A stretch of 33,787 bases of DNA from Myxococcales bacterium (lineage in GTDB: Bacteria > Myxococcota_A > Polyangia > DRWM01 > JAAZOP01). The position numbers were made by a program, and so were the translations under genes. Below, in pieces: positions 9 to 25,486 of this stretch. A model generated the notes under the pieces. It saw only the letters and a list, made by a program, of their open reading frames with translations, did not search any database and was not told the DNA's origin. The stretch is from NCBI GenBank assembly GCA_012797735.1, contig JAAZOP010000432.1:1-33787 (forward strand), in the 5' to 3' direction. How positions within the stretch are numbered: the first letter of the stretch is position 1; every line of letters starts with the position of its first letter.

Positions 9-476
9 GTGCCGGCGACGGCCGCCGGGCCGGAGGCGGCCGCGCGCATGGGGAGCGCGGCGGCCCGGCGGGCGCAGGAGATCCTGCGGATCCTGGCGCG
101 GGACCGGCGCGGACCGCTCGCCGGTTTCGCGTCCGGTCGCGTTCGGGAGGAGAGCGGCGAGCCAGGCGGGCGGCAGCTCGTGATCGAACTGGCGGGTCGG
201 GCAGGACGGCTGACGTTACGGGCGCTCGCGCGGCGCCCCGGGACGCCGGCGTTCCTCCGGACGCAGCGGTTCCTGCTGCGCTTCGACGCGGACACGCCGG
301 TGGACTCGCCCGACAAGGAGCACGTCGCGCGCGTGCTCGCGGCGCACCTCGAGCGGTTCGGTCTGTTGCCGGGGACGCGGCGGACCAGCCGGAGGCTCGC
401 TCCGGTCGCGCCGCTGGGCGCGGAGGAGGCGGCGCGGTTGGTCGAACGGCCGCCGGAGAAGGAGTGCGGCGCGTGA
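9..476 (+). CDS. Conserved accessory-module protein of unknown function (possibly the C-terminal part of a larger protein truncated by the window edge)
   Basis: ORF is open to the window edge; alternative ATG at 48. Ends in a GTGA overlap with the NifH-like gene. Aligns colinearly with the C-terminus of CDS 18851-20842 (LxG...LxLxL...GxPAF...LxF...TPxDxPxKxxVxxL). Confidence 0.6.
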   Translation: MPATAAGPEAAARMGSAAARRAQEILRILARDRRGPLAGFASGRVREESGEPGGRQLVIELAGRAGRLTLRALARRPGTPAFLRTQRFLLRFDADTPVDSPDKEHVARVLAAHLERFGLLPGTRRTSRRLAPVAPLGAEEAARLVERPPEKECGA

Positions 477-1303
477 CGGCACGCAGCTTCGCAATCTACG
501 GCAAGGGCGGCAGCGGGAAATCGACGATCGCCGCGGCGCTGTCGTCGGCGTTCGCGGACCTCGGCCTGCGGGTGCTGCACATCGGTTGCGATCCCAAGGC
601 GGATTCGTCCCGCCCCCTGCTGCGCCGCGGCCGGGTCCGGTCGGTGATGGGCGAGGCGATGACGACCCGTCTGCTGGACGCCTCGAGCGTGCTGGTCCGG
701 GGCGTCAAGGGGATCACCTGCGTCGAGGCCGGCGGACCCGAGCCGGGCGTCGGTTGCGCCGGCCGAGGCATCAGCCGGACGTTCGAGCTGCTCGCGGAGT
801 TGGGTGTGTCGCTCGCCTCGTACGACGTCGTCGTCTACGACGTGCTGGGGGACGTGGTGTGCGGCGGCTTCGCCGTGCCGATGCGCGAGGGACACGCGCG
901 GTACGTGGCGGTGACGGTCTCGGGCACCGGCATGTCGCTGTTCGCGGCGAACAACATCCTGCGGGCGGTGCGGCGGTTCCATCGGAACGGCGTGCGGCTG
1001 GCCGGGCTGATCGGCAACTACCACACCGGCGAGGCGTTCCGCGATCGCGTGCCCCGCTTCGCCGCCGCGACGGGGACGAGCGTGCTGGTCGAGATCCCGT
1101 TCGATCCGCAGGTGCAGAAGGCCGAGGAGCGTCGCGCCACGATCCTCGACTGGCGGCCACAGGGCGCGACGGCGCGGGCGGTGCGGCGGCTGGCCTCCCG
1201 GTTGCTGGACCTCGACGATCCGCCACCACCGAAGCCGCTCGAGGCCGAGGCGTTCGAGAGGTTCCTGGCGCGGCCGCGGAAGCGGAGACGGACGGCTCGA
1301 TGA
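473..1303 (+). CDS. NifH/BchL/CfbC-like Fe-protein ATPase
   Basis: YGKGGSGKST P-loop, CDPKADSS, GVGCAGRG and DVLGDVVCGGFAVPMR (both [4Fe-4S] Cys present). GTG at 473 overlaps the upstream TGA; the ORF track start is 464. Confidence 0.93.
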   Translation: MTARSFAIYGKGGSGKSTIAAALSSAFADLGLRVLHIGCDPKADSSRPLLRRGRVRSVMGEAMTTRLLDASSVLVRGVKGITCVEAGGPEPGVGCAGRGISRTFELLAELGVSLASYDVVVYDVLGDVVCGGFAVPMREGHARYVAVTVSGTGMSLFAANNILRAVRRFHRNGVRLAGLIGNYHTGEAFRDRVPRFAAATGTSVLVEIPFDPQVQKAEERRATILDWRPQGATARAVRRLASRLLDLDDPPPPKPLEAEAFERFLARPRKRRRTAR

Positions 1304-3306
1304 CGGCGCGGAGCGGGTCGTTCTGGGACTACCTCGGCCGCCTGGCCGCCGGCCTGGCGGCCGAGGGCTGCGGCTGTGGGGCGGTGCTGCCCGACGTGGA
1401 CGGCGGGCTGCTGTTCGCGTTGCGCGACGCGGCGGGCCGGCGGCACGTGGCGAGGCTGCGGCCGTCCGGGGGCGAGAACCGCGAACGCGGGCCGAGTTTC
1501 GAGCGGGGGACGGCGCCGCCGGCGATGATCCGGCGCCTGCGACGCGCCTTCCTCCGGTTCGCCGCGCGGAACCCGCATCCGCTGCTCGACCACCGAGGTC
1601 AGGACATCGGCGAGATCCTGCTGCGCCGCGGCGGGGAGCTGCCGGAGATCTGGCGCGAGGAACTCGTGCCCGGAACGACCCGCTGGTCCTCGTTCGTGCT
1701 CGAGGAGCTGGTGCCGCAGAGCGGGGCGCTGTACGCGACCTTCCGGGACGGCGAGCGCAGGGTGCGGCTGCGTCTGACGGACCGCGAGGACCCCCGGCTC
1801 GCCGGCGCGGAGCGGGTGCTGCCCGTCGGCAACCTGGCCCTGTCGCTCGTCGAGGACGACCGGACGCCGCCCGTTCGGCCCGCGGATCAGGTGGAACGCT
1901 TCCTGGCCTACCTGGTCGCGCGCACGACCGGACCGCGGACGCGGATCCGCGGAGACGGCGCGACCAGCCCGAGCGTCACGTCATACGGGGGGGAGGTCGA
2001 GCTGAACCCGTTCCTGCCGGAGGGGCGGCAGGGGGCGAGCGGCATGGCGGCGGCGCTGTCGAGCCGGCGGGGATCGCGGCTGAAAGTCGTCGTGTTCGGC
2101 GACGCGAGCTGCCGGCAGACGTTCCCGCCGCTGCGCCGGTTGCCGTTGTTCGACAGCTGGTCCTGCTTCCCGGTCGGCACCGCGCCGGAGCCCGGCGGCT
2201 GGGTGGCGTACGACTTCTCCGAACGGGACGTGATCGGCGGCGCCGAGCGGCGGCTGGAGCGGTTGCTGCGGGCGCTCCGCCGGCGGGACCCCGCCGTCCG
2301 GATCGCGCTGGTGCAGACCTGCGTGAGCCGGCTGATCGGGGACGACGTGCGGGGGGTCTTGCGCAAGGTGCTGGACGACGACGCCTTCGTGGTGCTCGAC
2401 CCCGACTTCCAGGCGAAGGACTGGGCGGTGGACGCGCTGGTGTGGCCGTGGGTGCTGCGGGCGTTCCGCCGTCCGGTCCGGCAACGGCGGAACCTCGTCA
2501 ACCTGGTGGGCCTCGGCGGCCGGGGTGCGCCGTGGGCCGCCGAGCTGGCCGGGTTGCTGCGGGACTGCGGGATCGGCGTCAACGCCCGCCTCTTCCCGTC
2601 GTTCCGGGAGGAGGAACTGGAGCGATTCGACGCGGCGCCGCTGACCGTCGCGAGCCGCTGCTCGATCGTGCGCAGCGCGTTCGCCGGCGTGGACCGCACG
2701 GCCGGTCCGAGCCGCTGGGTGACGCTGGACCCGCCGTTCGGAATCGAGGGCACCCGGCGGTGGGTGGAGGGCGTCGTGCGCGAGATCGGCGGCGGGCCGC
2801 TGCGCGGTGCGGCGCGCGATCGGCTGGAGCGGGCGTGCCGGGCCCGGCGGCGCGACCTGGCGCCGATCCGCGCGGCGCTGCGCGGCGCGTCGATCGCCCT
2901 GGTCGCCCAGAGCCGCTTCTCCGCCTGGATCTTCGACCCCGCCGAGATCTTCGGCATCCGGATTCTGGACCTGCTGACCGAGCTCGGACTGGAGGTGGAG
3001 ATCTTCCTCCACCGCGACGTGCCGCCGCCGCGGGAACTGGTCCGCGCGGTCGAGGGGCGGGGGGACGTGACGTTCCGCACGTTCGACGAGGCGGGCGCGC
3101 TGCGGGAGGCGCTCGCCGCCTCGAGGTCGAGGCTGCTGCTCACTTCGATCCGGCGCAACACGCCGGCCCTGGCCCTGGGCAAAATTCCGGTTTTCGTGCA
3201 AACCTTCGAACCCGGCCTCGACGGCGCGGTCCGAAGCGCCCGGCGTCTGGCCGCCGGCGCGAGGTTCCGGTTCCTGGAACGGTACGGGAGATACATGCGG
3301 CGATGA
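1300..3306 (+). CDS. Nitrogenase component 1-like (NifD/K superfamily) long subunit with N-terminal extension
   Basis: ATG at 1300 overlaps the upstream stop (ATGA). Shows LVQTCVSRLIGDDV, NLVNLVGLGG and VFVQTFEPGLDGAVRSARRL. About 200 aa extra N-terminal region. Confidence 0.85.
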   Translation: MTARSGSFWDYLGRLAAGLAAEGCGCGAVLPDVDGGLLFALRDAAGRRHVARLRPSGGENRERGPSFERGTAPPAMIRRLRRAFLRFAARNPHPLLDHRGQDIGEILLRRGGELPEIWREELVPGTTRWSSFVLEELVPQSGALYATFRDGERRVRLRLTDREDPRLAGAERVLPVGNLALSLVEDDRTPPVRPADQVERFLAYLVARTTGPRTRIRGDGATSPSVTSYGGEVELNPFLPEGRQGASGMAAALSSRRGSRLKVVVFGDASCRQTFPPLRRLPLFDSWSCFPVGTAPEPGGWVAYDFSERDVIGGAERRLERLLRALRRRDPAVRIALVQTCVSRLIGDDVRGVLRKVLDDDAFVVLDPDFQAKDWAVDALVWPWVLRAFRRPVRQRRNLVNLVGLGGRGAPWAAELAGLLRDCGIGVNARLFPSFREEELERFDAAPLTVASRCSIVRSAFAGVDRTAGPSRWVTLDPPFGIEGTRRWVEGVVREIGGGPLRGAARDRLERACRARRRDLAPIRAALRGASIALVAQSRFSAWIFDPAEIFGIRILDLLTELGLEVEIFLHRDVPPPRELVRAVEGRGDVTFRTFDEAGALREALAASRSRLLLTSIRRNTPALALGKIPVFVQTFEPGLDGAVRSARRLAAGARFRFLERYGRYMRR

Positions 3307-4616
3307 GAGCGCGGAAAACCGGACGGGTCGCGGTCCCCGGCGTGACGCTCGTGCCGGCGTACGAGACCGGCGTGTTCCTCGGGGTCAACGCGATCGAGAA
3401 CTCGGTCCTGTTGATGAACTCGCCGCGCTGTCCGTTCGTCCGCGGCCTGAAGGTCTTCGTGCACAACGACCTCGGCAGCACGGTCTATCGGGCCACGGGC
3501 CGGCACCGCGTGATCACCACCGAGTGGGCGGGCTACGAGGACGTCGGTGGCGGCGAGGCGGCGTTCCTGCGGCGGTTGCGCGAGGCCGCCGGCCGGCATC
3601 CCGGTCACTGGCTGTTCGCGTTCCAGAACATCTCCTCGCTGGTCACCGGCTTCGATCTGCGGGGCGCGCTACGGGCGGGCGGCGGCGCGGGCCGCGTCGT
3701 CCCCGTGCCGCTCGACGGGCCGCGCCTGGACGAGGACTGGCTGGGCGGCTACGACGCCGTGCTGGGCGGAGTGCTGCGCCGCGTCGTCTCCCGCCGGGGC
3801 CGGCCGGTCGACCTGCTGCTGGCGGGGAACCTGTTCTGCCGCAACGAAGACGACGAGCGGGCGAACGTGGACGAACTGCGCCGCCTGCTGGAAGCGCTCG
3901 GCGTCCGGCGTCCAGCGATCCTGCTGTCCGGCGGCCGGCTCCCCGTCGAACCGCTGCGGCCGCGCGCGACCATCGCGCTGCCGTACACCGGCGCGCGCGC
4001 GGAAGAGGCGCTGCGGCGGGCGGGCGCCGCTCCGGTGCGGGTCGGCCTGCCGGTCGGGATCGAAGGCACCGCGGAGTGGCTGCGGGCGATCGGCCGGACG
4101 CTCGGACGGGAGCCGGCGGCCGAGGCGTGCATCGAGCGGGAACTGCGGGAGCTGGTCCCGGCGGTCCAGTGGATCGCGGCCGAGCACCTGCTCGGCCGGC
4201 GGGCGGCGGTCGTCGCCGACCCGCACCTGGGCCGCGCGCTCGTTCGGTTCCTCGACGAGATGGGCCTGTCGGTGCCGGGCTGGTTCGTGACCGGGCGGGG
4301 CCCGGAGCCCGCGGGCCGACGTCGGGGCTCCCGGCGCCGGGAGCCGGCGGGCCGGGTGTTCGTCGAGCCGACCGTCGAGCAGTTCGCGTCGTTCCTCGAG
4401 GACGACCCCGTGGACCTCGTGATCGGCGGGTCGTCGTTCAAGTACCTGGCGCTGGACCGCGGCGTGCCCTACGTGGAGATCGGTTTTCCCAGCTACCTGA
4501 CCCACGTGCTGCATCCGCGGCCGTACCTGGGCTTCGCGGGAGCGCGATGCATCGTCGAGTCGCTGCTCAACGCGCTGCTCGAGCGGGATCAGCGGCGGAA
4601 TGCCACCGAGCCCTGA
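3303..4616 (+). CDS. Nitrogenase component 1-like (NifD/K superfamily) short subunit
   Basis: ATGA overlap with the previous gene. NSPRCPF Cys motif, DPHLGRALVRFLDEMGL, and C-terminal FPSYLTHVLHPRPYLGFAGA typical of the NifK/BchB-like C-terminus. Confidence 0.85.
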   Translation: MRARKTGRVAVPGVTLVPAYETGVFLGVNAIENSVLLMNSPRCPFVRGLKVFVHNDLGSTVYRATGRHRVITTEWAGYEDVGGGEAAFLRRLREAAGRHPGHWLFAFQNISSLVTGFDLRGALRAGGGAGRVVPVPLDGPRLDEDWLGGYDAVLGGVLRRVVSRRGRPVDLLLAGNLFCRNEDDERANVDELRRLLEALGVRRPAILLSGGRLPVEPLRPRATIALPYTGARAEEALRRAGAAPVRVGLPVGIEGTAEWLRAIGRTLGREPAAEACIERELRELVPAVQWIAAEHLLGRRAAVVADPHLGRALVRFLDEMGLSVPGWFVTGRGPEPAGRRRGSRRREPAGRVFVEPTVEQFASFLEDDPVDLVIGGSSFKYLALDRGVPYVEIGFPSYLTHVLHPRPYLGFAGARCIVESLLNALLERDQRRNATEP

Positions 4617-5634
4617 CATCGCGGCGGCGCTGGTGCCGTACTTCCACCTGCGGTACCGGGCGCGGTGCAACCTGCGCTGCTTCTTCTGCTACGAGCGTCC
4701 GCATCCGCGGTCGGTTCCGCGGGATCTCGCCGCACGTCTCGAGCGGGAGATGAGGACGGCGCGGCGGGCGGGGTACCGCGGCGTCGTCTTCGGCTCCGCG
4801 GAACTGCTGCTGTTGCCGGGTTGGCGGGAGGTGGTCGTTGCGGCGCGGCGGCTGGGCTTCGAGCGCGTGCGGATGCTCAGCAACCTGCTGGCCGTGAACG
4901 AGAGGACGCTCGACGAACTGGCGCGGGCCGGCGTGGACGGGATCACGGGGACGCTGTTCGCCGCCGGCGATGCCGATGCGCAGGCCGTCTCGGGCGGCCG
5001 GGACGTGTTCTCGCGGCAAGTGCGGGCGGCGCGACGGATCGCCGGGCATGGCGCGTTCTCGTTCTCGCTGCACCTGATCCTCACGCGTTCGCTGGCGCGA
5101 GACCCGTGCGGAAATGCCGTGCGTCTTCGGGACGCACTGGCCCCCGGGCTCGACCGGATGATGCTGTCGGCGATCGAGCCGGTTTCGGCGGCGGTGGCCG
5201 GGCATCCGCAGTACGTGCACGGGCTCGACCTGGACTGGCCGCGGCTGCTCGCCCGCGCCGACCGGGAAGGACTGCGGTTGATCGTGCAGAATATCCCCGC
5301 CTGCCTGTTGGGCCGGTACGCCCACCGCACCCTCTTCCTGCGGATGCGGGTGGCGCGGATCCTGGAGGGATGGCCGCGGCCGCCGTCCCTGGCGCGGTTC
5401 GTCGATCGGGTCGAAGGGCTGGCGCGGAGGACGACGCCCGCCGGCCCATGCGTGGGCTGTCCGCTGCTTGCCGTCTGCCACCGCTACTTCGACTATCCGG
5501 TGAAGCGGCGCGTGCGGGGGCTGGACGAGCGAGGCGTGGTGACCCGGTTGCTGGCCGAGGAAGGCGTGCGGGGCTCGCCGGAGCGCATCGTCGCCGGCCT
5601 GCGGGCGATCGACTCGCGGCCGCCCCGGTCGTGA
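4600..5634 (+). CDS. Radical SAM protein with C-terminal Cys motif
   Basis: CNLRCFFC (CxxxCxxC) near the N-terminus; C-terminal CVGCPLLAVC. Overlaps the 3' end of the preceding gene. Confidence 0.88.
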   Translation: MPPSPDIAAALVPYFHLRYRARCNLRCFFCYERPHPRSVPRDLAARLEREMRTARRAGYRGVVFGSAELLLLPGWREVVVAARRLGFERVRMLSNLLAVNERTLDELARAGVDGITGTLFAAGDADAQAVSGGRDVFSRQVRAARRIAGHGAFSFSLHLILTRSLARDPCGNAVRLRDALAPGLDRMMLSAIEPVSAAVAGHPQYVHGLDLDWPRLLARADREGLRLIVQNIPACLLGRYAHRTLFLRMRVARILEGWPRPPSLARFVDRVEGLARRTTPAGPCVGCPLLAVCHRYFDYPVKRRVRGLDERGVVTRLLAEEGVRGSPERIVAGLRAIDSRPPRS

Positions 5635-5721: not shown

Positions 5722-7023
5722 TCACGGGCGGCGGGAGCGCTTCCGGGCATGCTCGGCGAGATGCCGCTGGTGTTCGACGGCGTTGGTCAACCGCTCGGCG
5801 AGCCGGGCCAGTCCGGCGAAGCCCATGTAGGGGGTGGGCTCGGCGAAGTGCTCGAGGTAGTGCGGCGCGGAGATCTCGACCGTGGCGAGGCCGGCTTGGC
5901 GGGCGGCGTCGGCGACGACGGCGGAGCCGACGACCGCCTCGCAAATGCGGTTCCGGGCCAGGCGGCGCAACTCCCGCTCGAAGTCGGCGCGCTTCGGGTC
6001 GAGCAGGATCTGGCGGCCCGGCCGGTCGAGGCGGGCGAGGACCGGGTCCGCGGCGTTGCCGCGGCGCAGGACGCCGACGAGACAGGCCTCGACGCCCAGC
6101 TCGCCGAGGGCGCGGCACAGGCCGTCGGCGGTCCAGGGGTCGCCCAGGACGGCCACGCCGAGACCGGCGAGGGTTCTTTCGCACAGCGGGCGGATTCGGT
6201 CGGCCAGTGCGCGCGATTCTTCGCGGATCACCGCCTCGGTCCGCCGGGTGCACCGGAACTTCCGCGCGAGCCTCCGCAGCATCGAGCAGGTCGCATCGAT
6301 CCCGATCGGCAGTTCGACCTCGATCACCTCGCCCTCCCACGCGAAGCGCGACGCGTCGAACCCGATCGGGAAGGCGACGAGCGGGGTGTGGCGAGGGATG
6401 GGCGAGTCGGGGAGGAGGCCGGCGGAGAACGGCCAGGCGGCGGGTGGCGGGAAGCCGGCGAGTCGCCAGAGACGAAGGATCTCTTCGAGATTGCCGGTCT
6501 CGTCTCCCTCCCGGCGAAACGGCAGGAAGCCTCCGACGACGGGGGCGCGGCTGCCTCCGCGCGGCCCGCGGAGGTCGCGGAAGACCGCGGCCTGCGTCCT
6601 GCGAATCCCATCGACCCAGTCCTCGTCCAGCGATTCCCGCCCGACGAAGACGAGGCGCCCGGAGAGCTTCTTTCGCCACTCGGCGACAAGGCCCTCGACG
6701 TCGGTGTTGGCGAGCAGGGAAAGGAAGCTCGGGGCGACCAGGAGGGTGTCCCCTGGATGGTGGCGCGCCACGAAATCGATCATCTCCGCCAGCGTCCGTT
6801 CGGTGCCCTGGACGAGGGTCGCGGTCTTCCAGAGCGGGGCGAAAACGCGCCGGTCGCGGGTGTACGAACCGGCGCCGGACAGCTCGGCCCGCCAGTCGTG
6901 GGTCTGGTCGAAGATCCAGGCGCGTTCCTGCTCGCAGCGCGGCGCATCGAGCACGGCCCGGACGCCGGGCAGGGCGTTGACGGCGAGCAGCACGCCGTCG
7001 AGGTACTTCGGAGCGAGTCTCAT
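5722..7023 (-). CDS. Nitrogenase component 1-like short subunit
   Basis: In-frame ATG at 7023 inside the longer ORF 5722-8958. LDAPRCEQER motif, C-terminal YLEHFAEPTPYMGFAGLARL. Overlaps the stop of the upstream gene. Confidence 0.83.
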   Translation of the reverse strand: MRLAPKYLDGVLLAVNALPGVRAVLDAPRCEQERAWIFDQTHDWRAELSGAGSYTRDRRVFAPLWKTATLVQGTERTLAEMIDFVARHHPGDTLLVAPSFLSLLANTDVEGLVAEWRKKLSGRLVFVGRESLDEDWVDGIRRTQAAVFRDLRGPRGGSRAPVVGGFLPFRREGDETGNLEEILRLWRLAGFPPPAAWPFSAGLLPDSPIPRHTPLVAFPIGFDASRFAWEGEVIEVELPIGIDATCSMLRRLARKFRCTRRTEAVIREESRALADRIRPLCERTLAGLGVAVLGDPWTADGLCRALGELGVEACLVGVLRRGNAADPVLARLDRPGRQILLDPKRADFERELRRLARNRICEAVVGSAVVADAARQAGLATVEISAPHYLEHFAEPTPYMGFAGLARLAERLTNAVEHQRHLAEHARKRSRRP

Positions 7024-9107
7024 CGGTGCCGAACCCCCGCCCTGCGCAGCCGACACCACGTGCCGGGAAAGGCGCTCTCGGCCAGCCGGACGAGCCGGGC
7101 GAGGCTGCGGACGGTGCCGGCGAGGCCCGGTTGGATGTCGCGCGGCTGAAAGAACATCTTGCCGGCTTCCAGCGCGCGCCGGTCGGGCGGAAACTCGCTG
7201 AAGCACAGGCGGGCATCGAGCGTTGCGAGGATGGCGGTGGGTTCCCGAACGGGCCTGCGGATCGTCCGCACCGTCTCCGCCAGCAACGGATCCGCGGCGG
7301 CCCGCCGTTCCAGTCGCGAGCGGGCGGTCTCTCCCTCCGGGCCCGCGAGCACGACGAGATCGATCCCGAAGCCGAACTCGGCGAGGATCCGCAGGAGGTC
7401 CAGGCCGTGCAGTTCTTCGGGTTCCAGGAGACAGGTCGCGTCGCCCGGCCGGACCAGGAAGCAGACGCGCACGCCCCGGGCCCGCTCCTGCCAGGCGGCG
7501 AATTCCGGCTCGTGGGGCGCCCACAGGGCTTCCGCCTCGGCCTGCGGATCCTTCGCGCCCGCCAGTTCTGCCAGGCCGCGGTAGAAGGCGATCGTCGCGG
7601 ACTTTCCGAAGGGCGGCGGAATCCGGTGGAAGCGCATCGTGGGGAAGGTCGCGGCGGCCCGGGCGAACTCGAAGGTGGACGAGCGCGCGGGGTTGAGCAC
7701 GGTGCAGGCGGCGCGGGCGAAATCCCGCGCCTCCCGGGAGTGGAACGACGGCACGAGCAGGGCGTTGAGCCGCAGGCCGAGCCTGGGAATCGTACCGCGC
7801 AACTCGTCGGCCAAGTCGGATTCCGCCGGGGCGTAGCCGACCAGGTTGATTCGGTCGGCCTCCGGCGGCCGCCGGCGGTCTGCGATCTGCAGCAGCAGTT
7901 CCCAGGTGTGGTCCATTTCCACGAAGTGCTCGAGCATCTGGCCGATCACGACGACGGGTTTGCCGAACTCCCGCTCGACGGCGGCCGCGAGACCTTCGTA
8001 GTCGAGTCCCGTGACGTCGCCGACGCAGGTGCCCATCAGCGCGACGATCCGGGTCTTCCGGCGGCCGGCGGCCCGGCGGAGGGCGCGCAGGAGAACCGTG
8101 TCGTCTCCCCGGATCGTCTGCGCCTGGACCGGCTCCAGCCACTCGATCTCGCGCCCGGAAGCGTGCGTGGGCAGGGGATGCAGTCGCGCGAACAGGGAGC
8201 GGAGGTGCCCGCACGACTTGAGCCACGGCAACTTGGTCGTGCACTCCTGGTCCGTGTGCACCACCAGCGCGAGGCCCTCGTCCGCGGCGAGGAGCGTCCC
8301 CAGCGTCTCCTGGGTGCCGATGCGGCGCAGGAACGGGTCGAGGAAGAAGGCATGCTCGGGCACCTGGTCGAGATTCTGGCGGATCCGGTCGTCCGGGTCG
8401 TCGCGGAACGGGACGTCGCCGTTCGGACTCGCGTGTGCCGGCTCCGGTCGCGCCGCAGCCAGCGGTTGACCCGGGCGGAACGCGCGGTGGAAGGCGTAGT
8501 AGACGTAGGTCTCGACGCGCCGCGCGACGCTTCCGACCGCGGCCGGGTCGCGTCCGTCGGCGGCGATGCGGACGGCCAGCGGGCCGAAACGGCGCCAGCC
8601 TTCCTCGCGGGCCGCGCGCGACGGCGCCACCCGGAAGTCCACGCGTCCGGCGGGGCCCTCGAAGACGAGCGTCACGGTGCGATCCTCGTTCGCATCGCAG
8701 CCCGCGAACAGGAAAGGACCCCAGGCGGTGCGGCCGGCGTCGAGGAAGCGCCGCAGGTGGACCCGGGCGAAGTCGGCGTCGAGGACCACGGGGCGGTCGG
8801 CATCCTCCCAGACGGCCAGCGGGTCGAGGGAGAGCGGGAACCGCGTCCGCGCGCCGGCCAGGCGTCGCAGGCACGCGGCGGCGAAACGATCGGTCGCGCC
8901 GCGCACGAAGAAGCAGCCCTCGACGCCCCGGACGACCGAACCGCCGGGCCGATGCCACGGACTGTGGAAGACCTCGACGCGGCGGCGACCCTCGCGGAAG
9001 CGGTAGAGCAGCGAACCGTCGTGGAGCGGGACGGCGGCCGCCGCGCCGGCGCGACGGGCGAGAGCGGCGAACAGGTCGAGGAGTTGGACGGGTCGCGGGT
9101 CGCTCAC
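7020..9107 (-). CDS. Nitrogenase component 1-like long subunit with N-terminal extension
   Basis: GTG start at 9107, 4 nt after the NifH-like stop. DQECTTKLPWLKSC, MGTCVGDVTGLDY, DRINLVGYAP and IQPGLAGTVRSLARL. Confidence 0.84.
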   Translation of the reverse strand: MSDPRPVQLLDLFAALARRAGAAAAVPLHDGSLLYRFREGRRRVEVFHSPWHRPGGSVVRGVEGCFFVRGATDRFAAACLRRLAGARTRFPLSLDPLAVWEDADRPVVLDADFARVHLRRFLDAGRTAWGPFLFAGCDANEDRTVTLVFEGPAGRVDFRVAPSRAAREEGWRRFGPLAVRIAADGRDPAAVGSVARRVETYVYYAFHRAFRPGQPLAAARPEPAHASPNGDVPFRDDPDDRIRQNLDQVPEHAFFLDPFLRRIGTQETLGTLLAADEGLALVVHTDQECTTKLPWLKSCGHLRSLFARLHPLPTHASGREIEWLEPVQAQTIRGDDTVLLRALRRAAGRRKTRIVALMGTCVGDVTGLDYEGLAAAVEREFGKPVVVIGQMLEHFVEMDHTWELLLQIADRRRPPEADRINLVGYAPAESDLADELRGTIPRLGLRLNALLVPSFHSREARDFARAACTVLNPARSSTFEFARAAATFPTMRFHRIPPPFGKSATIAFYRGLAELAGAKDPQAEAEALWAPHEPEFAAWQERARGVRVCFLVRPGDATCLLEPEELHGLDLLRILAEFGFGIDLVVLAGPEGETARSRLERRAAADPLLAETVRTIRRPVREPTAILATLDARLCFSEFPPDRRALEAGKMFFQPRDIQPGLAGTVRSLARLVRLAESAFPGTWCRLRRAGVRHR

Positions 9108-18825: not shown

Positions 18826-18854
18826 AGACTAGGGCCGGGAGCGCAGCGCGTCAA
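18826..18854 (-). promoter_or_regulatory. Putative sigma70-type promoter for the 18814-to-5722 minus-strand unit
   Basis: On the minus strand: TTGACG (18854-18849), 17-nt spacer, TAGTCT (18831-18826), 11 nt before the ATG at 18814. Confidence 0.65.
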
Positions 18855-20842
18855 CGCGAAGGACGGGCGAGCCATGCGGCGAGCCGGCGGGCCAGCTCGC
18901 GCACGCCGGCCTGCTTCTCCGGCGTGTCGAGCGGGGTGGTCTCGGCGAACCAGAGCTTGAGCGGTCCGTGCTCGACGAAAGCGGGGCCCGGGACGTCGGC
19001 CGGCGTCAGACGCAGGTCCAGCCGTTCCTTCCCGCGCCGCAGCGCCAGGGCCAAGCCGAAGGCGCCGTTCCCAGCGCGCGCCGCCAGGTCGTCGAATCGC
19101 CAGCCGGGCAGCGGCGAATCGGCGGAGGACAACAGCCGGGCCAGCCGGGCGCGCAGGCGCGGGGCCAGGGCCCGCAGGCGTCGCTCGAGCGGTGTGACGG
19201 CGCGGCGGACACCGGGAGCGCTCGGCCGCGGGCGCCCGCCGCGGTGGTTCCGGCGCGGTCCGGGGGACGGGGCGGGCGGCACCGCGCGCCGCACGCGCTC
19301 GAGCAGTTCGGTCGGATCGGCGGGCGGCGGGTCGCGCCGCGCCGTCTCGAGCGCCTCCAGCAGGAAATCGAGGACGTGCGGCCAGCGGTCGGGACGAGAT
19401 CGGAACAGCGCCGCCGCACGTCGGGCCAGCGGGTCGGCCGGCCGGCAGCCTGGCTCCTGGGCGGCGGTCAGGCGCCAGACCAGCTCGTAGTAGACGGCCG
19501 TGCGCGGGTCGAGGAAGCGCCACGGCAGTTCCACCTGGCGGGGGTCGCCGACGCAGCGACCGTCCCAGAAGAAGAAGCCGTCGAACGAATCGACCAGGGC
19601 GCCGTCCCGGGCGGCCAGCCGGGCGATCGCGGTCTCGGGGAGGACCTGGAGCTTGCTGCGCAACCGGCGCCATTCCATCCCGATCTCGGGGAAGGTGAAG
19701 CGTTGGAGCCGGCGGTAGTTGATCGCGACGTCGTCCAGCGTGGTCCAGGGCGTGAACAGGATCATGCCGAAGCTCTCGAAGCTGAACGTGTCGGGATACG
19801 CCTGCGCCCAGCGCCGGATCTGCTCGACCGCGCGGTCGACCTGCTCCGGCGTGATCCCCTTGTTGAAGCGTTCGTTCTCGCGCGCCGAGAAGTTCTCGAT
19901 GCCGGGGTTGTAGATGCGCAGCCGATGGCCGGCGCGCGCCAGGGCCGGCAGCTTCTTCGTGACCTGATCGGCGACGCGCAGCAGTTCGTCCACGCGGTAA
20001 GAGAACAGGAAACGGCTCGGGGGCAGGCCGGAGTCGAGCACCCCTTGCGCGAAGTCGCCGAACCGCAACGCGACCCGCGCGGCGCGGATCAGGTAGGTGT
20101 CGCCCGAGAAGCGGTCCGTCGTCGCCGCCGCGGCCCGGCACTGGCGCAGCGCCAGTTCGACCGGCGGCGTCTCGAGGCGGTAGACCAGCTCGCGCTTGCG
20201 GCAGAAGGCGCAGCCGATCGAGCCGACCCCCGCCGGCAGTTCGACGCCGGCGTAGAACGGATTGCGGGCCAACGGACGACCGTACAGGCAGACCGGGCCG
20301 CCGATCACCGCGATGTACGGCCGCGGCGGAGCCGCCCGACCGCGCGGCGGCGGGATCAGCCGGTTCTCGTACCGCGGTTCGACGGCGTCGAGCAGCCATC
20401 GTCCCCGCCAGGGATCCGCCGGCAGGCCGAGCCGTCGCGGCAGCCAGTCGGCCGGGCAGTACAGCGAACGCACCTCCGGATCGTCCCAGATCGAGATCAG
20501 GCGGAGGCCGGGAAAGGCCCCGGCGATGCGCCGCTGCAACTCCTCGCCGATCGCCTCGGAGAAGATCAGATGGCTGGGGCGGAACTCGCGGACCGCGCCG
20601 AGCAGCATCCGGGTCTCCGCCGGCGACGGGTGCACCGTGTGCCGGTCCAGATGGCCCGAGGTGTCGCGGGAGTAGAGGCCGGCGAACCGCCAGGCCGCCT
20701 CGACCCCCAGCGCGCGGGCCTGGCCCAGGAAGAACGGGAACATCTCGCTCTTGTCGCGACCGTAGGGATCGTCGAACAGGAATTCGACCAGCAGCAGCCG
20801 GAGCCGGGAAGCCGTGGTCCGCGGCGCAGCCCGAAGCGTCAC
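18851..20842 (-). CDS. Radical SAM-like protein with incomplete cluster motif and C-terminal accessory module
   Basis: GSIGCAFCRKRE in place of CxxxCxxC; FLFSYRVDELLR and NPGIENFSARENERFNKGIT resemble radical SAM core motifs. C-terminal approx. 110 aa aligns with ORF 9-476. GTG start at 20842. Confidence 0.7.
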   Translation of the reverse strand: MTLRAAPRTTASRLRLLLVEFLFDDPYGRDKSEMFPFFLGQARALGVEAAWRFAGLYSRDTSGHLDRHTVHPSPAETRMLLGAVREFRPSHLIFSEAIGEELQRRIAGAFPGLRLISIWDDPEVRSLYCPADWLPRRLGLPADPWRGRWLLDAVEPRYENRLIPPPRGRAAPPRPYIAVIGGPVCLYGRPLARNPFYAGVELPAGVGSIGCAFCRKRELVYRLETPPVELALRQCRAAAATTDRFSGDTYLIRAARVALRFGDFAQGVLDSGLPPSRFLFSYRVDELLRVADQVTKKLPALARAGHRLRIYNPGIENFSARENERFNKGITPEQVDRAVEQIRRWAQAYPDTFSFESFGMILFTPWTTLDDVAINYRRLQRFTFPEIGMEWRRLRSKLQVLPETAIARLAARDGALVDSFDGFFFWDGRCVGDPRQVELPWRFLDPRTAVYYELVWRLTAAQEPGCRPADPLARRAAALFRSRPDRWPHVLDFLLEALETARRDPPPADPTELLERVRRAVPPAPSPGPRRNHRGGRPRPSAPGVRRAVTPLERRLRALAPRLRARLARLLSSADSPLPGWRFDDLAARAGNGAFGLALALRRGKERLDLRLTPADVPGPAFVEHGPLKLWFAETTPLDTPEKQAGVRELARRLAAWLARPSR

Positions 20843-20900: not shown

Positions 20901-23204
20901 TCACCGGCCGTCGCGGACGCAGCGCCAGTTCGCGGGGAACGGCTTGTCCGCCGGGCTCACATGGCCGCTGCTGAAGTTCACCTGCCAGACGCTCGGCGGG
21001 TCGAAGACCCAGGGGGTGGACGACCAGTACCACCCGACGGGCGTTCCCGGGAAGGCGACGGCGTCGATCGCGGGCGACCGGACGCGCGTGTCGAGGAGAC
21101 TGGCCAGTTCCTTCACGTCGGGCAGCCTCCAGTCGTCGAAGCCGGCCCACACCAGCGATGCGCAGTCGGACGCGGCCCGATCCCAGGTGTCCAGCGTCGC
21201 CGCGCCGGTGTCGCAGTCCCGCCCGGTCCGGCCGGCGGCGCAGCCCTGCCACACCAGCGCGGTCGCGGCGTCGAGAACGACCGGCTGGCCGGGCTCCGGT
21301 TCGTCGCGCCGGAACCGCCGCCACGGCGTCCCGGCCGCCGGCGCGCCGGGCGCTCCCCCGCGAACGCACCGGACGCCGTGGCGCTGGCCGCCGTCCGAGT
21401 AGCTCTGGTGGCCGGCGGCGAAATGGACGACCCAACCGACCATCGAACCCGCCGCGTAGAGCGACGACGACCAGAAGTAGTCGGACGTCGCCGGGAACAC
21501 CGCCGGGTCGACGGCGGGTCCGGACCGACCGTAGTCGATGATCGACAGGAGCTCGGTCGGCGACGGAAGGCGCCAGTCGTCGTGCCCCGCCCAGACCAGG
21601 CGGTCGCACCAGACGAGCGCTTCCGCGTAGGTCGCTTCGAGCCGGTCGCCGGTCGAGCAGTCGGCGCCGGACAACCCGGCCGGACAGCCCTGCCAGACCA
21701 GGTGCGTGATCCCGTCGGTGACGACCGGTTGACGCGTTCCGGTCCGGACGAGCGCATCGTTTCCCGCCGCCGGCGGCAGCCGGTCGCGCGGCCCGGGGGC
21801 GTTGCAGCGGGCGGAGCCGCACGAGCCCGGCGAGCGGCAGGCGCCCGCCACGCAGATGTCGTAGGAGAAGTCGGGTCGGGTCGCGAGGCGGCACGGGGTG
21901 CCGTCCGGTTGGACGCCCCAGTCGCAACCCCACCCCTCGATGCAGTCGGGCGTCGACGCGCGCCGGGCGCACTGGTCGTCGAGATCGGGCGGGGCGGCCC
22001 GCGCGCAGAACGCGTCGTCCCAGCCGGCGCCGTCGCAGTCCCAGTCGGTCGCGGAGCAGTCGAGACTCAGGGCGCCGGGGTGGACCCAGCCGTCGGCGTC
22101 GTTGCAGTCCCCCTGGTCCTCGCGGAACAGGTCGCCGTCGTCGTCGACGAACGGACGGACTGCGCGCGCGTCGGCGGGGCGGGAGACGAGCGGCACATCG
22201 TCGAAGGCCCAGGCGCGGTAGAAGTGCTCGACGCCGTCGGGCGCGGCCGGATCGCGGCACCCCTCCGCGCGGGTCCGGCAGACCACGACGGCCTCCGGAT
22301 CGTCGGGGCGCTCCGGAGGCACGTCGTCCCGGCGCAGGACGACGACGCCGGCCAGGTCGGGATCGGGCGGGTTCTCCCAGGAGAGTTCGATCCCCGTCCG
22401 GCCGGGGCGCGGGTCCGATGTCGCCGAGAAGCCGGACAACGCTGCCGGCGGCGTGACGTCGGTGGATCGACCGGAGGCGAAGGCGCCGGACGAGTAGTGG
22501 ATTCCCGAGCGGACGAAGACGGCGTAGCAAGAGTCCACTTCGTCCCGGACGGCGTCGTCGGTCCAGGAACGGGGTCCGCCCGGAGCGCCCGGCGGGAGAT
22601 CGATGCGCCGCTCGGCCCCGGCCGCATCCGGCGCGTCCTGGCACGCTCCGGCGAAGCGCAGGACGCGCACGAAGTCGACCCCCGCCGGGTCCGGCTCGTG
22701 CCAGGTCAGCGTGAGCCGTCCGCCCAGGCCGGGATCGGTGACCTGCAAGTCCGTCACGGGCAGAACGCCGACGTGGACCCGGGTCCTCCGTTCGACGGGC
22801 GGCCGTGCCGTCGCGTCGCCGAGGAACGCCGCGTAGAAGTACGTGCGTCCCGCCGTCACGCCGGAGTCGAAGATCGAGGCGCGGAACGGCCCGCGATGGA
22901 CCACGGCCGCGTCGCGGTCGTCCGGTCCGTCCGGGAACGCGTCCTCCCGGCGCAGCACCAGAAGGTGCCCGACGGTGCCGCCGTCCGGCGGCTCCAGGAC
23001 CAGCCGCACCAGCGAGCCGGTCCCCAGGTCCTCCGCCTCGAACGGGCGCCGGGGACTCGACGTCGGGCCGGCCAGGCGGTCCGCCGCGTCGGCGGCCGCC
23101 GGCCGCGTCGAACCCTCGGATCGATGCCCGCAGGCCGCCAGCGCGGCGCAGGCGGCCAGTCCGCCCAGGCACGCCCGGCCGGTCCAGGCGCCGCGTCCGC
23201 TCAT
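20901..23204 (-). CDS. Lipoprotein with two DUF1566/Lcl_C-like repeats, Fn3-like region and MopE-like Cys/Asp motif
   Basis: ATG at 23204; lipobox-like LAAC. HLVWQGCPAG...HDDWRLPSPTELLSI...YFWSSS occurs twice; DDDGDLFREDQGDCNDADGWVHPGA. Confidence 0.85.
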   Translation of the reverse strand: MSGRGAWTGRACLGGLAACAALAACGHRSEGSTRPAAADAADRLAGPTSSPRRPFEAEDLGTGSLVRLVLEPPDGGTVGHLLVLRREDAFPDGPDDRDAAVVHRGPFRASIFDSGVTAGRTYFYAAFLGDATARPPVERRTRVHVGVLPVTDLQVTDPGLGGRLTLTWHEPDPAGVDFVRVLRFAGACQDAPDAAGAERRIDLPPGAPGGPRSWTDDAVRDEVDSCYAVFVRSGIHYSSGAFASGRSTDVTPPAALSGFSATSDPRPGRTGIELSWENPPDPDLAGVVVLRRDDVPPERPDDPEAVVVCRTRAEGCRDPAAPDGVEHFYRAWAFDDVPLVSRPADARAVRPFVDDDGDLFREDQGDCNDADGWVHPGALSLDCSATDWDCDGAGWDDAFCARAAPPDLDDQCARRASTPDCIEGWGCDWGVQPDGTPCRLATRPDFSYDICVAGACRSPGSCGSARCNAPGPRDRLPPAAGNDALVRTGTRQPVVTDGITHLVWQGCPAGLSGADCSTGDRLEATYAEALVWCDRLVWAGHDDWRLPSPTELLSIIDYGRSGPAVDPAVFPATSDYFWSSSLYAAGSMVGWVVHFAAGHQSYSDGGQRHGVRCVRGGAPGAPAAGTPWRRFRRDEPEPGQPVVLDAATALVWQGCAAGRTGRDCDTGAATLDTWDRAASDCASLVWAGFDDWRLPDVKELASLLDTRVRSPAIDAVAFPGTPVGWYWSSTPWVFDPPSVWQVNFSSGHVSPADKPFPANWRCVRDGR

Positions 23205-25486
23205 GGCGTCGCACTCCGCACGCAGCGGACGTAGCACGGCAGGGTCCGGTCGAAGTTGGCCACGTGCCCGCTGGAGAAGTTGACGTGCCACGCATGGGTG
23301 GACGGTCCGCCGGCGTAGCGCAAACCGGTCCAGTACCAGCCGATCGGCGTGGCCGGGAACGCCGCCGGGTCGATCGACGGCGACCTGCGCCTCGTGTCGA
23401 GGATGCTGTCCAGTTCCTTGGTGTCGGGCAGGCGCCAGTCGTCGAACCCGCCCCAGGCGAGGGACTCGCAGGCGGCTCCGGCCGCGTCCCAGTCGAGCAT
23501 CGCCGCGTCGCCGGCGGAGCAGTCGGGGCCGTGGAGACCCACGGCGCACCCCTGCCAGACCAGACCGGTCACGACGTCGGTCACGACCGGCTGGCCGCTC
23601 GCCGGCTCCGCCCGCGAGAACCGCCGCCAGCCGGCTCCACCGGCCGGCGGCGGAGCGCCGTCGCGGACGCAGCGGACGAACTGGCGCGCCTCGGCCGGCG
23701 AGCAGACGACGTTCCCGGAGTTGAAGTATCCCGCCCAGACCATCCGCGAACCGGCGACGTACGACGAGGAGGACCAGAAGTAGTCCGAGGTTCCCGGGAA
23801 GACCGCGACGTCCGCGGCCGGCCCCACCCGTCCGTGGTCGGCGATCGAAAGCAGCTCGTGGCGGTCGGGCAGGCGCCAGTCGTCGTGCCCGGCCCAGTCC
23901 AGGGCGTCGCACCAGGCCAGGGCCTCCCGCCAGTCCAGGGCGGCGCGTTCGCCGGTGACGCAATCGGGGCCGCTCGTCCCGGCCGGGCAGCCCTGCCAGA
24001 CGAGTCCGGTCCGCCGGTCGACGACGACCGGCTCGGGGCCCCCCGTGCGTTCGAACTCCGCGGGTCCCGCCGCCGGCGGCAGGCGGAAGTGCGGGCCGGG
24101 CGAGTTGCACGTCGCGTCGCCGCAGGTGCCGGGCGAGCGGCAGGCGCCGGCGGCGCAGATGTCGTACGAGAAGTCCGGATCGGTGACGAGCGTGCAGGGC
24201 GTGTGGTCGGGCAGGACATTCCAGTCGCACCCCTGGCCGGCGACGCAGGCGGGGGCGGACGATCGGTCGCTGCACGCATCGTCGAGCCAGGGCGGCGCGG
24301 CGGAACGGCAGAACGCATCGTCCCACCCGGCACCGTCGCAGTCCCAGTCCGTCGCCGAACAGTCCAGGCTGGGGGCGCCCGGATGAACCCGCGCGTCGTC
24401 GTCGTCGCAGTCGCCCTGGTCCTCCCGGAAACCGTCGCCGTCGTCATCGATCGGCCGGCGGGTCGTGCTCACCTCCGCCGGCGCGGAGGCGAGCGCGCCG
24501 CCGTCCAACGCCCAGACGCGGTAGCGGTACTCGACGCCGTCCCGGACGCCGGCGTCGCGGCAGCTCCCGCCCGGACCGTTCCACACGATGGCGGCGCGCG
24601 GGTCGTGCGGGCCGTCCGGCCAGTCGCGCTCGCGCCGGAGGACGAGGATCCGGGCGAGATCCGGGTCCGCGGGATTCGTCCACGACAGTCCGATCGACCG
24701 ATCCCCCGGCGTCGTGGAGGCGACCGCCGCCAGACCGGTCACCGCCGCCGGCGGGGTGGTGTCGGACGAGACGGCGTGCGCGAAGACGCCGGGCGCGTAC
24801 AGGTAGTTGGCCTTCGACCGGGCGAAGACCGCGTAGCAGTAGCGCACGCCGTCCTCGACCCGGTCGTCGCTCCAGGTCTGGGGTCGGCCGGGGGCCGCGA
24901 CCGGCAGGTCGATCCGGCGGCCGAAAACGGCGGGGTCCGGGTCATCGGAGCAGTCGCCGGCGAACCGCAGGATGCGGATCAGGTCGGTCGTCGGACTCGA
25001 CGGGTTCGTCCAGGACAGGTCCAGGCGCCGCCCGCGGCCGGGATCGGTCACGCGGAGGCCGGTCACCGGCCGCGGCCCGATATCCACCGCGGCGGCGGGG
25101 CCCGCGCGCCAGCGTGCGCCGTCTTCCGAGGAAAAAGCCGCGTAGCGGTACACCCGTCGCGGAACCGCTTCCGCGTCGAAGTACTCGACCTGCGGGGGGC
25201 CGCGGAAGACGATGACGGCCCTCCGGTCGTCGGGCCCCCGCGGGACGGCCTCCTCGCCGCGCAGGATCAGGACCTCGATCGGCGCGGGCGCACCCGGCGG
25301 GCGCTGCCAGGTCAACCGCACCACCGACCCGACCCCGAGATCGGTCGCCGAGAGCGTTCCGGGAGGTTCGTCCGATGTCGCGGAGGGCGCCCGGCCGCAG
25401 GCGAGGAGCAACCCCGGCAGGAAGAGTCGGAGCGCGGGCCGGACCGTCGTTCGCCACCTCCGTTCGACCCGCGGGTGCCGCGGCAT
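23201..25486 (-). CDS. Lipoprotein paralogous to CDS 20901-23204 (DUF1566/Lcl_C-like, MopE-like motif)
   Basis: LLLACGRAP lipobox; GLVWQGCPAG...HDDWRLPDRHELLSI...YFWSSS repeats; DDDGDGFREDQGDCDDDDARVHPGA; ATGA overlap with the next gene. Confidence 0.86.
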   Translation of the reverse strand: MPRHPRVERRWRTTVRPALRLFLPGLLLACGRAPSATSDEPPGTLSATDLGVGSVVRLTWQRPPGAPAPIEVLILRGEEAVPRGPDDRRAVIVFRGPPQVEYFDAEAVPRRVYRYAAFSSEDGARWRAGPAAAVDIGPRPVTGLRVTDPGRGRRLDLSWTNPSSPTTDLIRILRFAGDCSDDPDPAVFGRRIDLPVAAPGRPQTWSDDRVEDGVRYCYAVFARSKANYLYAPGVFAHAVSSDTTPPAAVTGLAAVASTTPGDRSIGLSWTNPADPDLARILVLRRERDWPDGPHDPRAAIVWNGPGGSCRDAGVRDGVEYRYRVWALDGGALASAPAEVSTTRRPIDDDGDGFREDQGDCDDDDARVHPGAPSLDCSATDWDCDGAGWDDAFCRSAAPPWLDDACSDRSSAPACVAGQGCDWNVLPDHTPCTLVTDPDFSYDICAAGACRSPGTCGDATCNSPGPHFRLPPAAGPAEFERTGGPEPVVVDRRTGLVWQGCPAGTSGPDCVTGERAALDWREALAWCDALDWAGHDDWRLPDRHELLSIADHGRVGPAADVAVFPGTSDYFWSSSSYVAGSRMVWAGYFNSGNVVCSPAEARQFVRCVRDGAPPPAGGAGWRRFSRAEPASGQPVVTDVVTGLVWQGCAVGLHGPDCSAGDAAMLDWDAAGAACESLAWGGFDDWRLPDTKELDSILDTRRRSPSIDPAAFPATPIGWYWTGLRYAGGPSTHAWHVNFSSGHVANFDRTLPCYVRCVRSATP

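Follow-up and report, generated by a model that had tools for sequence, protein, structure and literature searches.

What small domain could be of use to both a nitrogenase-like enzyme and a radical SAM enzyme? The question is raised by a stretch of 33,787 nucleotides (hereafter the window), which makes up one complete contig, G000:C131, of a draft assembly of 5.3 Mb split into 662 contigs. Among the products of the window are two NifH-like, three NifD-like and three NifK-like proteins together with a number of radical SAM proteins, including B12-binding ones, and the components of a nitrogenase-like reductase, a NifH-like ATPase with NifD/NifK-like subunits, are matched by PF00142 and PF00148 across its length. 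The features referred to below are as follows.

9..476, + strand: P0005-type (radical-SAM-like) gene, 3' end only, truncated at the contig start (5'-open frame; ortholog in L023, N-terminal part on contig C544)
about 78-422, + strand: C-terminal module within 9-476 (70.6 bits)
464..1303, + strand: NifH-like ATPase (PF00142, E 2.6e-76; best NCBIfam match CfbC, below cut-off)
1300..3306, + strand: NifD-like protein with tandem N-terminal extension (PF00148)
3303..4616, + strand: NifK-like protein (PF00148, E 3.3e-40)
4600..5634, + strand: radical SAM protein (PF04055, E 2e-14)
5722..7023, - strand: NifK-like protein (PF00148, E 1.1e-28)
7020..9107, - strand: NifD-like protein with tandem N-terminal extension, group 2 member (PF00148, E 6.3e-18)
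9112..9981, - strand: NifH-like ATPase (PF00142, E 5.8e-77)
9971..11440, - strand: B12-binding radical SAM protein (PF02310 and PF04055)
11504..12841, - strand: NifK-like protein (PF00148, E 1.2e-39)
12927..15917, - strand: fusion of a radical SAM domain, the module and a NifD-like domain (PF04055 and PF00148)
14433..14783, - strand: module of the fusion protein, between its radical SAM and NifD-like domains (94.8 bits, E 1.3e-26)
16981..18039, - strand: radical SAM protein resembling HxsC4 (NF038332, 128 bits, below the 500-bit cut-off)
18851..20842, - strand: P0005, a non-canonical radical-SAM-like protein with C-terminal module (homologous family A2)
18854..19183, - strand: C-terminal module of P0005 (73.2 bits, E 6.7e-20; second figure 41.9 bits)

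The frame at 9-476 had been described in the initial annotation as a stand-alone module that aligns colinearly with the C-terminus of the radical-SAM-like protein 18851-20842, under the heading of a module shared between enzyme classes. The alignment was recovered, the minus-strand C-terminus of 18851-20842 being the only second match of 9-476 in a single-sequence search of the genome (E 0.09). The stand-alone gene, however, is an artefact of the contig edge. The contig start coincides with base 1 of the window and the frame is open at its 5' end, the N-terminal part matching the same gene terminates at the end of contig C544 in the same genome, and the ortholog in the relative G002 (L023) reads as one frame of 663 aa or more, in which the module occupies residues 525-630; 9-476 is therefore a C-terminal end and not a gene of its own. 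The G002 copy adjoins a NifD ortholog (75% identity). Contigs C544 and C131 seem to be separated by a gap of about 25 codons. Nor do the two copies come from different enzyme classes, as the G002 protein is homologous to 18851-20842 across 625 aa (332 bits) and the two genes of the window, judged by this homology, are paralogs of one protein family, P0005.

P0005 itself gave no match in Pfam or NCBIfam, and P0006, used as query in a scan of the genome contigs, found no relative. In the P0005-family proteins of 18851-20842, L023, L068 and L032, only the last two cysteines of the radical SAM motif are kept (GCxFC), CX5CX2C being present in some relatives (L025, L069 and L200), while an upstream CxY is invariant in family A2; cluster ligation in the P0005 family may be unusual or lost. 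On contig C544, L068:3-1187 encodes a NifH-like protein whose C-terminus apparently continues, as a fusion, into the first part of a NifD-like domain before the contig end cuts it off, and the remainder of this fusion may be L037:3198-4265. Beside the enzyme cluster of the window, 20901-23237 and 23201-25486 encode two neighbouring secreted-looking proteins with repeats of the metal-binding MopE-like and Lcl_C types, and a similar gene pair is found at the equivalent position in G002 (L024).

With 9-476 and 18851-20842 reduced to a pair of paralogs, and a single-sequence score as weak as the one above, the similarity could be accounted for without any shared module, as a paralog pair plus chance beta-strand resemblance among GC-rich proteins. 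This account is hardly credible in view of the profile searches. A profile built from NifD-like N-extensions only (g1), searched against 4122 frames, gave as its best non-NifD matches radical SAM proteins, each hit at one terminus or the other; among them were L036 (E 1e-5), one homolog of P0005 (4e-5), a B12-binding radical SAM protein (5e-5) and window 9-476 (0.002). The reverse profile, built from P0005 C-termini only, matched NifD-like N-extensions (L151, E 1.6e-4; L152, 1.1e-3). At E<=0.01, three profiles matched 91, 122 and 29 real frames, and none of the three matched any of 6802 reversed or shuffled frames. Aligned with hhalign, the NifD-extension profile and the P0005 C-terminal profile reached 88% with a score of 35.9, far above both nulls for that pair (at most 0.9% and 14.5 for shuffled columns, at most 2.4% and 16.9 for unrelated real segments), and a confident fold is predicted from the mixed alignment (see below). 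The module shared between the enzyme classes is thus a real, unannotated and mobile domain family of roughly 100 residues, as the initial annotation had proposed, and the copy that it suspected in the middle of the fusion protein was located at 14433-14783.

The initial annotation had also suspected more divergent copies in the N-terminal extensions that 1300-3306 and 7020-9107 carry. A sequence-profile search found no module match in either extension, but profile-profile comparison with a 69-copy profile scored the second unit at 71% and the first at 19% (shuffle maxima 1.8% and 0.7%), with the following boundaries.

about 1321-1569 and 1672-1929, + strand: divergent module-like units of 1300-3306 (hhalign)
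about 8838-9086 and 8484-8744, - strand: module-like units of 7020-9107 (group 2, hhalign)

On this comparison the extensions look, weakly, like two divergent module units in tandem.

The module of the fusion protein, modelled by AlphaFold with 20 relatives, yielded a predicted alpha-beta4-alpha2 structure of high confidence (pLDDT 91.2, pTM 0.84), with a helix at residues 8-17, strands at 26-34, 37-44, 49-56 and 71-77, and helices at 83-94 and 99-107. Differing folds among the copies, or HHpred probabilities at background, had been named beforehand as outcomes that would speak against a shared module; next to the confident module model, that of 1300-3306, built from 11 sequences only, has a pLDDT of 59 and lies mostly below 50 in the N-extension. 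Foldseek returned nothing at E<=0.001 against the PDB (best 0.22, only curved-sheet lookalikes) or against viral models (best 0.057). The comparison covered these two sets, and a new fold is not claimed. Sequence databases were equally silent: 21 modules searched against Pfam and NCBIfam at E<=1 gave nothing beyond single chance matches, and a PDB sequence search gave no credible match, its best entry, SUMO-2 (28 residues, E 0.02), being taken as chance. No column of the module alignment is invariant, including any Cys or His, which argues against an active site.

A search with profile A4 identified about 120 module copies in 20 genomes, six of them in the genome of the window and up to 18 in one genome. 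The bearers belong to a group of delta-proteobacteria. With few exceptions, bearers other than NifD-like proteins have the module at the N- or C-terminus, and some proteins carry tandem copies. Among these 49 non-NifD bearers, 33 match Radical_SAM, eight a B12-binding domain and one U32 peptidase, and the radical SAM bearers comprise MoaA/SPASM-type, B12-dependent, HemN-type and P0005-type proteins. Read by sequence, the other bearers include P0005-type, sulfotransferase-like and glycosyltransferase-like membrane proteins and a lipoprotein-like frame; PMT_2 gave one match among the module bearers, below cut-off. Discrete copies were found in L194 (185 aa), L157 (121 aa) and, membrane-anchored, L232 (161 aa). 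The 149-aa frame L103:4313-4759 was left uncounted as a stand-alone copy, since it extends to the limit of the retrieved sequence and opens with a P0005-like tail. In G492, the Glycosyltransferase-39-like membrane proteins of L183, L198 and L199 carry one or two modules in the predicted extracytoplasmic N-terminal part, and L062:2-862, flavin-oxidoreductase-like in its sequence, has a module near its C-terminus.

Of the functions suggested for the module in the initial annotation (shared substrate, carrier or docking domain), terminal placement favours docking or recognition, while a substrate or carrier is less likely, as no residue of the alignment is invariant. A carrier for a cofactor or a tetrapyrrole-type small molecule would have its precedent in NifB, a radical SAM protein with a C-terminal NifX-like domain. 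Here too a small domain is appended to a radical SAM protein in a nitrogenase context, and the module, like the NifX/NafY domain at the NifB C-terminus, is associated with radical SAM and nitrogenase-like proteins. Unlike that domain, however, it is found on different enzymes, has no Pfam match to a NifX-like or other nitrogenase-cofactor domain (21 modules, E<=1) and conserves no metal or cofactor ligand, and it also occurs on membrane proteins and a U32 peptidase, so that we regard a carrier as quite improbable.

A link to the His-Xaa-Ser system was obtained from a phylum sample of 290 genomes, of which 52 contain the module and 104 contain HxsB. HxsB is present in 51 of the 52 module genomes versus 53 of the 238 without a detected module (Fisher p about 3e-26, with genomes treated as independent though related, and HxsB as the sole radical SAM family compared), and the lone module genome without HxsB is 68% complete. 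As HxsB is the more widespread of the two, its tie to the module may be indirect or a matter of genome content. The HxsB proteins in module loci score 520-533 bits (cut-off 370). HxsB together with HxsD or an HxsD-like protein was observed within module-enzyme loci in G005 (L134 and L135), L227 and L233; nitrogenase-like genes are present in the first two of these HxsB/module loci and none were seen in the last two. The HxsD beside HxsB scores 57.8 bits in L229, above the 50-bit cut-off, and just under it in L134 (49.6) and L135 (49.8). In the genome of the window, a 12.7-kb contig (G000:C149; L237) encodes HxsD, HxsD-like, HxsB, B12-binding radical SAM, tetrapyrrole-methylase-like and NifK-like proteins together, of which HxsB is assigned by profile (477 bits against the cut-off of 370) and the others are named by resemblance. 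The module itself is neither HxsD nor the HxsD-like protein, for which hhalign gave background values. One radical SAM gene pair (VKALxKVGY... and ANLGYxQV...) recurs in L136:9497-11350 and L227:2404-6521, that is, in one nitrogenase-like cluster and in one cluster without nitrogenase-like genes.

The co-occurrence with HxsB also bears on whether the enzymes have a common target at all. The module could be a general ligand-binding or envelope domain that was recruited independently, and this would agree with the copies in signal-peptide or membrane proteins, with the membrane-anchored 161-aa copy and with a distribution wider than the nitrogenase-like family. The predominance of radical SAM proteins among the non-NifD bearers, and HxsB in all module genomes but one, argue against it and make it improbable.

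Based on terminal placement, spread over enzyme classes, co-occurrence and neighbourhood with HxsB, and an arrangement resembling that of RREs, we consider the module to be a domain for recognition or docking, mobile and probably without catalytic activity, that tethers varied redox-modifying enzymes to one kind of target, most likely an Hxs-type peptide or protein, and give this reading a probability of about one half. Each catalytic unit would carry one, sometimes two, modules at an end; the modules would bind and recruit a common target, probably a peptide or protein that passes through a maturation system of the HxsB/HxsD type, and radical SAM and, presumably, nitrogenase-like enzymes would then modify this target in turn. 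The tethering reading is weakened by the searches for a precursor peptide, in which canonical HxsA, the His-Xaa-Ser repeat target, never exceeded the cut-off in the 10 module genomes searched and was without any match in G000, and no small precursor gene beyond HxsD and HxsD-like was conserved near modules. It is weakened further by the copies on glycosyltransferase-like membrane and lipoprotein-like proteins, bearers that are hard to reconcile with a peptide target in the cytoplasm. As its chief rival we see a scaffold: modules would attach to one another, or to a common hub protein, and bring the enzymes into one complex while leaving the substrate untouched. Many copies per genome on co-encoded enzymes, their terminal placement and the tandem copies in some proteins would all suit such an assembly, but in some genomes of the phylum sample only one copy was detected, so that a partner module is lacking, and we hold a scaffold to be unlikely.

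If tethering to a common target is correct, a tentative extension is a new peptide-modification pathway, in which nitrogenase-like reductases and many radical SAM enzymes would recognise one ribosomal precursor via an undescribed domain of non-RRE fold; we think this possible, though doubtful. The substrates of nitrogenase-like enzymes with a known role are small molecules or tetrapyrroles (N2, the precursors of chlorophyll and F430, thioethers and isethionate; in part PMC11423573), and a literature search covering few subscription journals gave no paper joining nitrogenase-like enzymes, RiPPs and radical SAM. Should the module group nitrogenase-like paralogs with radical SAM peptide maturases, it would provide a testable link from low-potential, ATP-driven reduction to peptide modification, and profile A4 is a sequence handle for locating such clusters without knowing their product.

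Among known systems, the module is most readily compared with the RREs, which occur fused or discrete and at either end of different enzymes (PMC7470986). Like these PqqD-like domains of about 90-100 residues, which are found at either end or alone, with a wide range of unrelated modifying enzymes, radical SAM proteins among them, and which are divergent in sequence, the module occurs both as terminal fusions and as discrete proteins (L194, L157 and L232). However, the RRE fold is strictly a beta3-alpha3 winged helix (PMC12710340), whereas the module is predicted to be alpha-beta4-alpha2, and an identification as an RRE by fold was therefore rejected; no Pfam or NCBIfam match to PqqD/RRE families was found among 21 modules at E<=1. 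The best reading of this comparison is that the module may work like an RRE, yet outside the RRE definition. The His-Xaa-Ser system (HxsA/B/C/D) is similar in that HxsB and HxsD genes accompany module loci, but it is described without nitrogenase-like enzymes, its HxsA target was not found above cut-off in the 10 genomes searched, and the module is not its HxsD. Of known systems that pair a nitrogenase-like enzyme with a radical SAM protein, the isethionate reductase IsrBHDK (NflBHDK) comes closest: its nitrogenase-like HDK are encoded with a radical SAM protein, the role of the latter subunit being unclear (PMC11423573). IsrBHDK has one radical SAM partner and belongs to a small-molecule sulfonate pathway, whereas the enzymes described here have many partners and a common appended domain.
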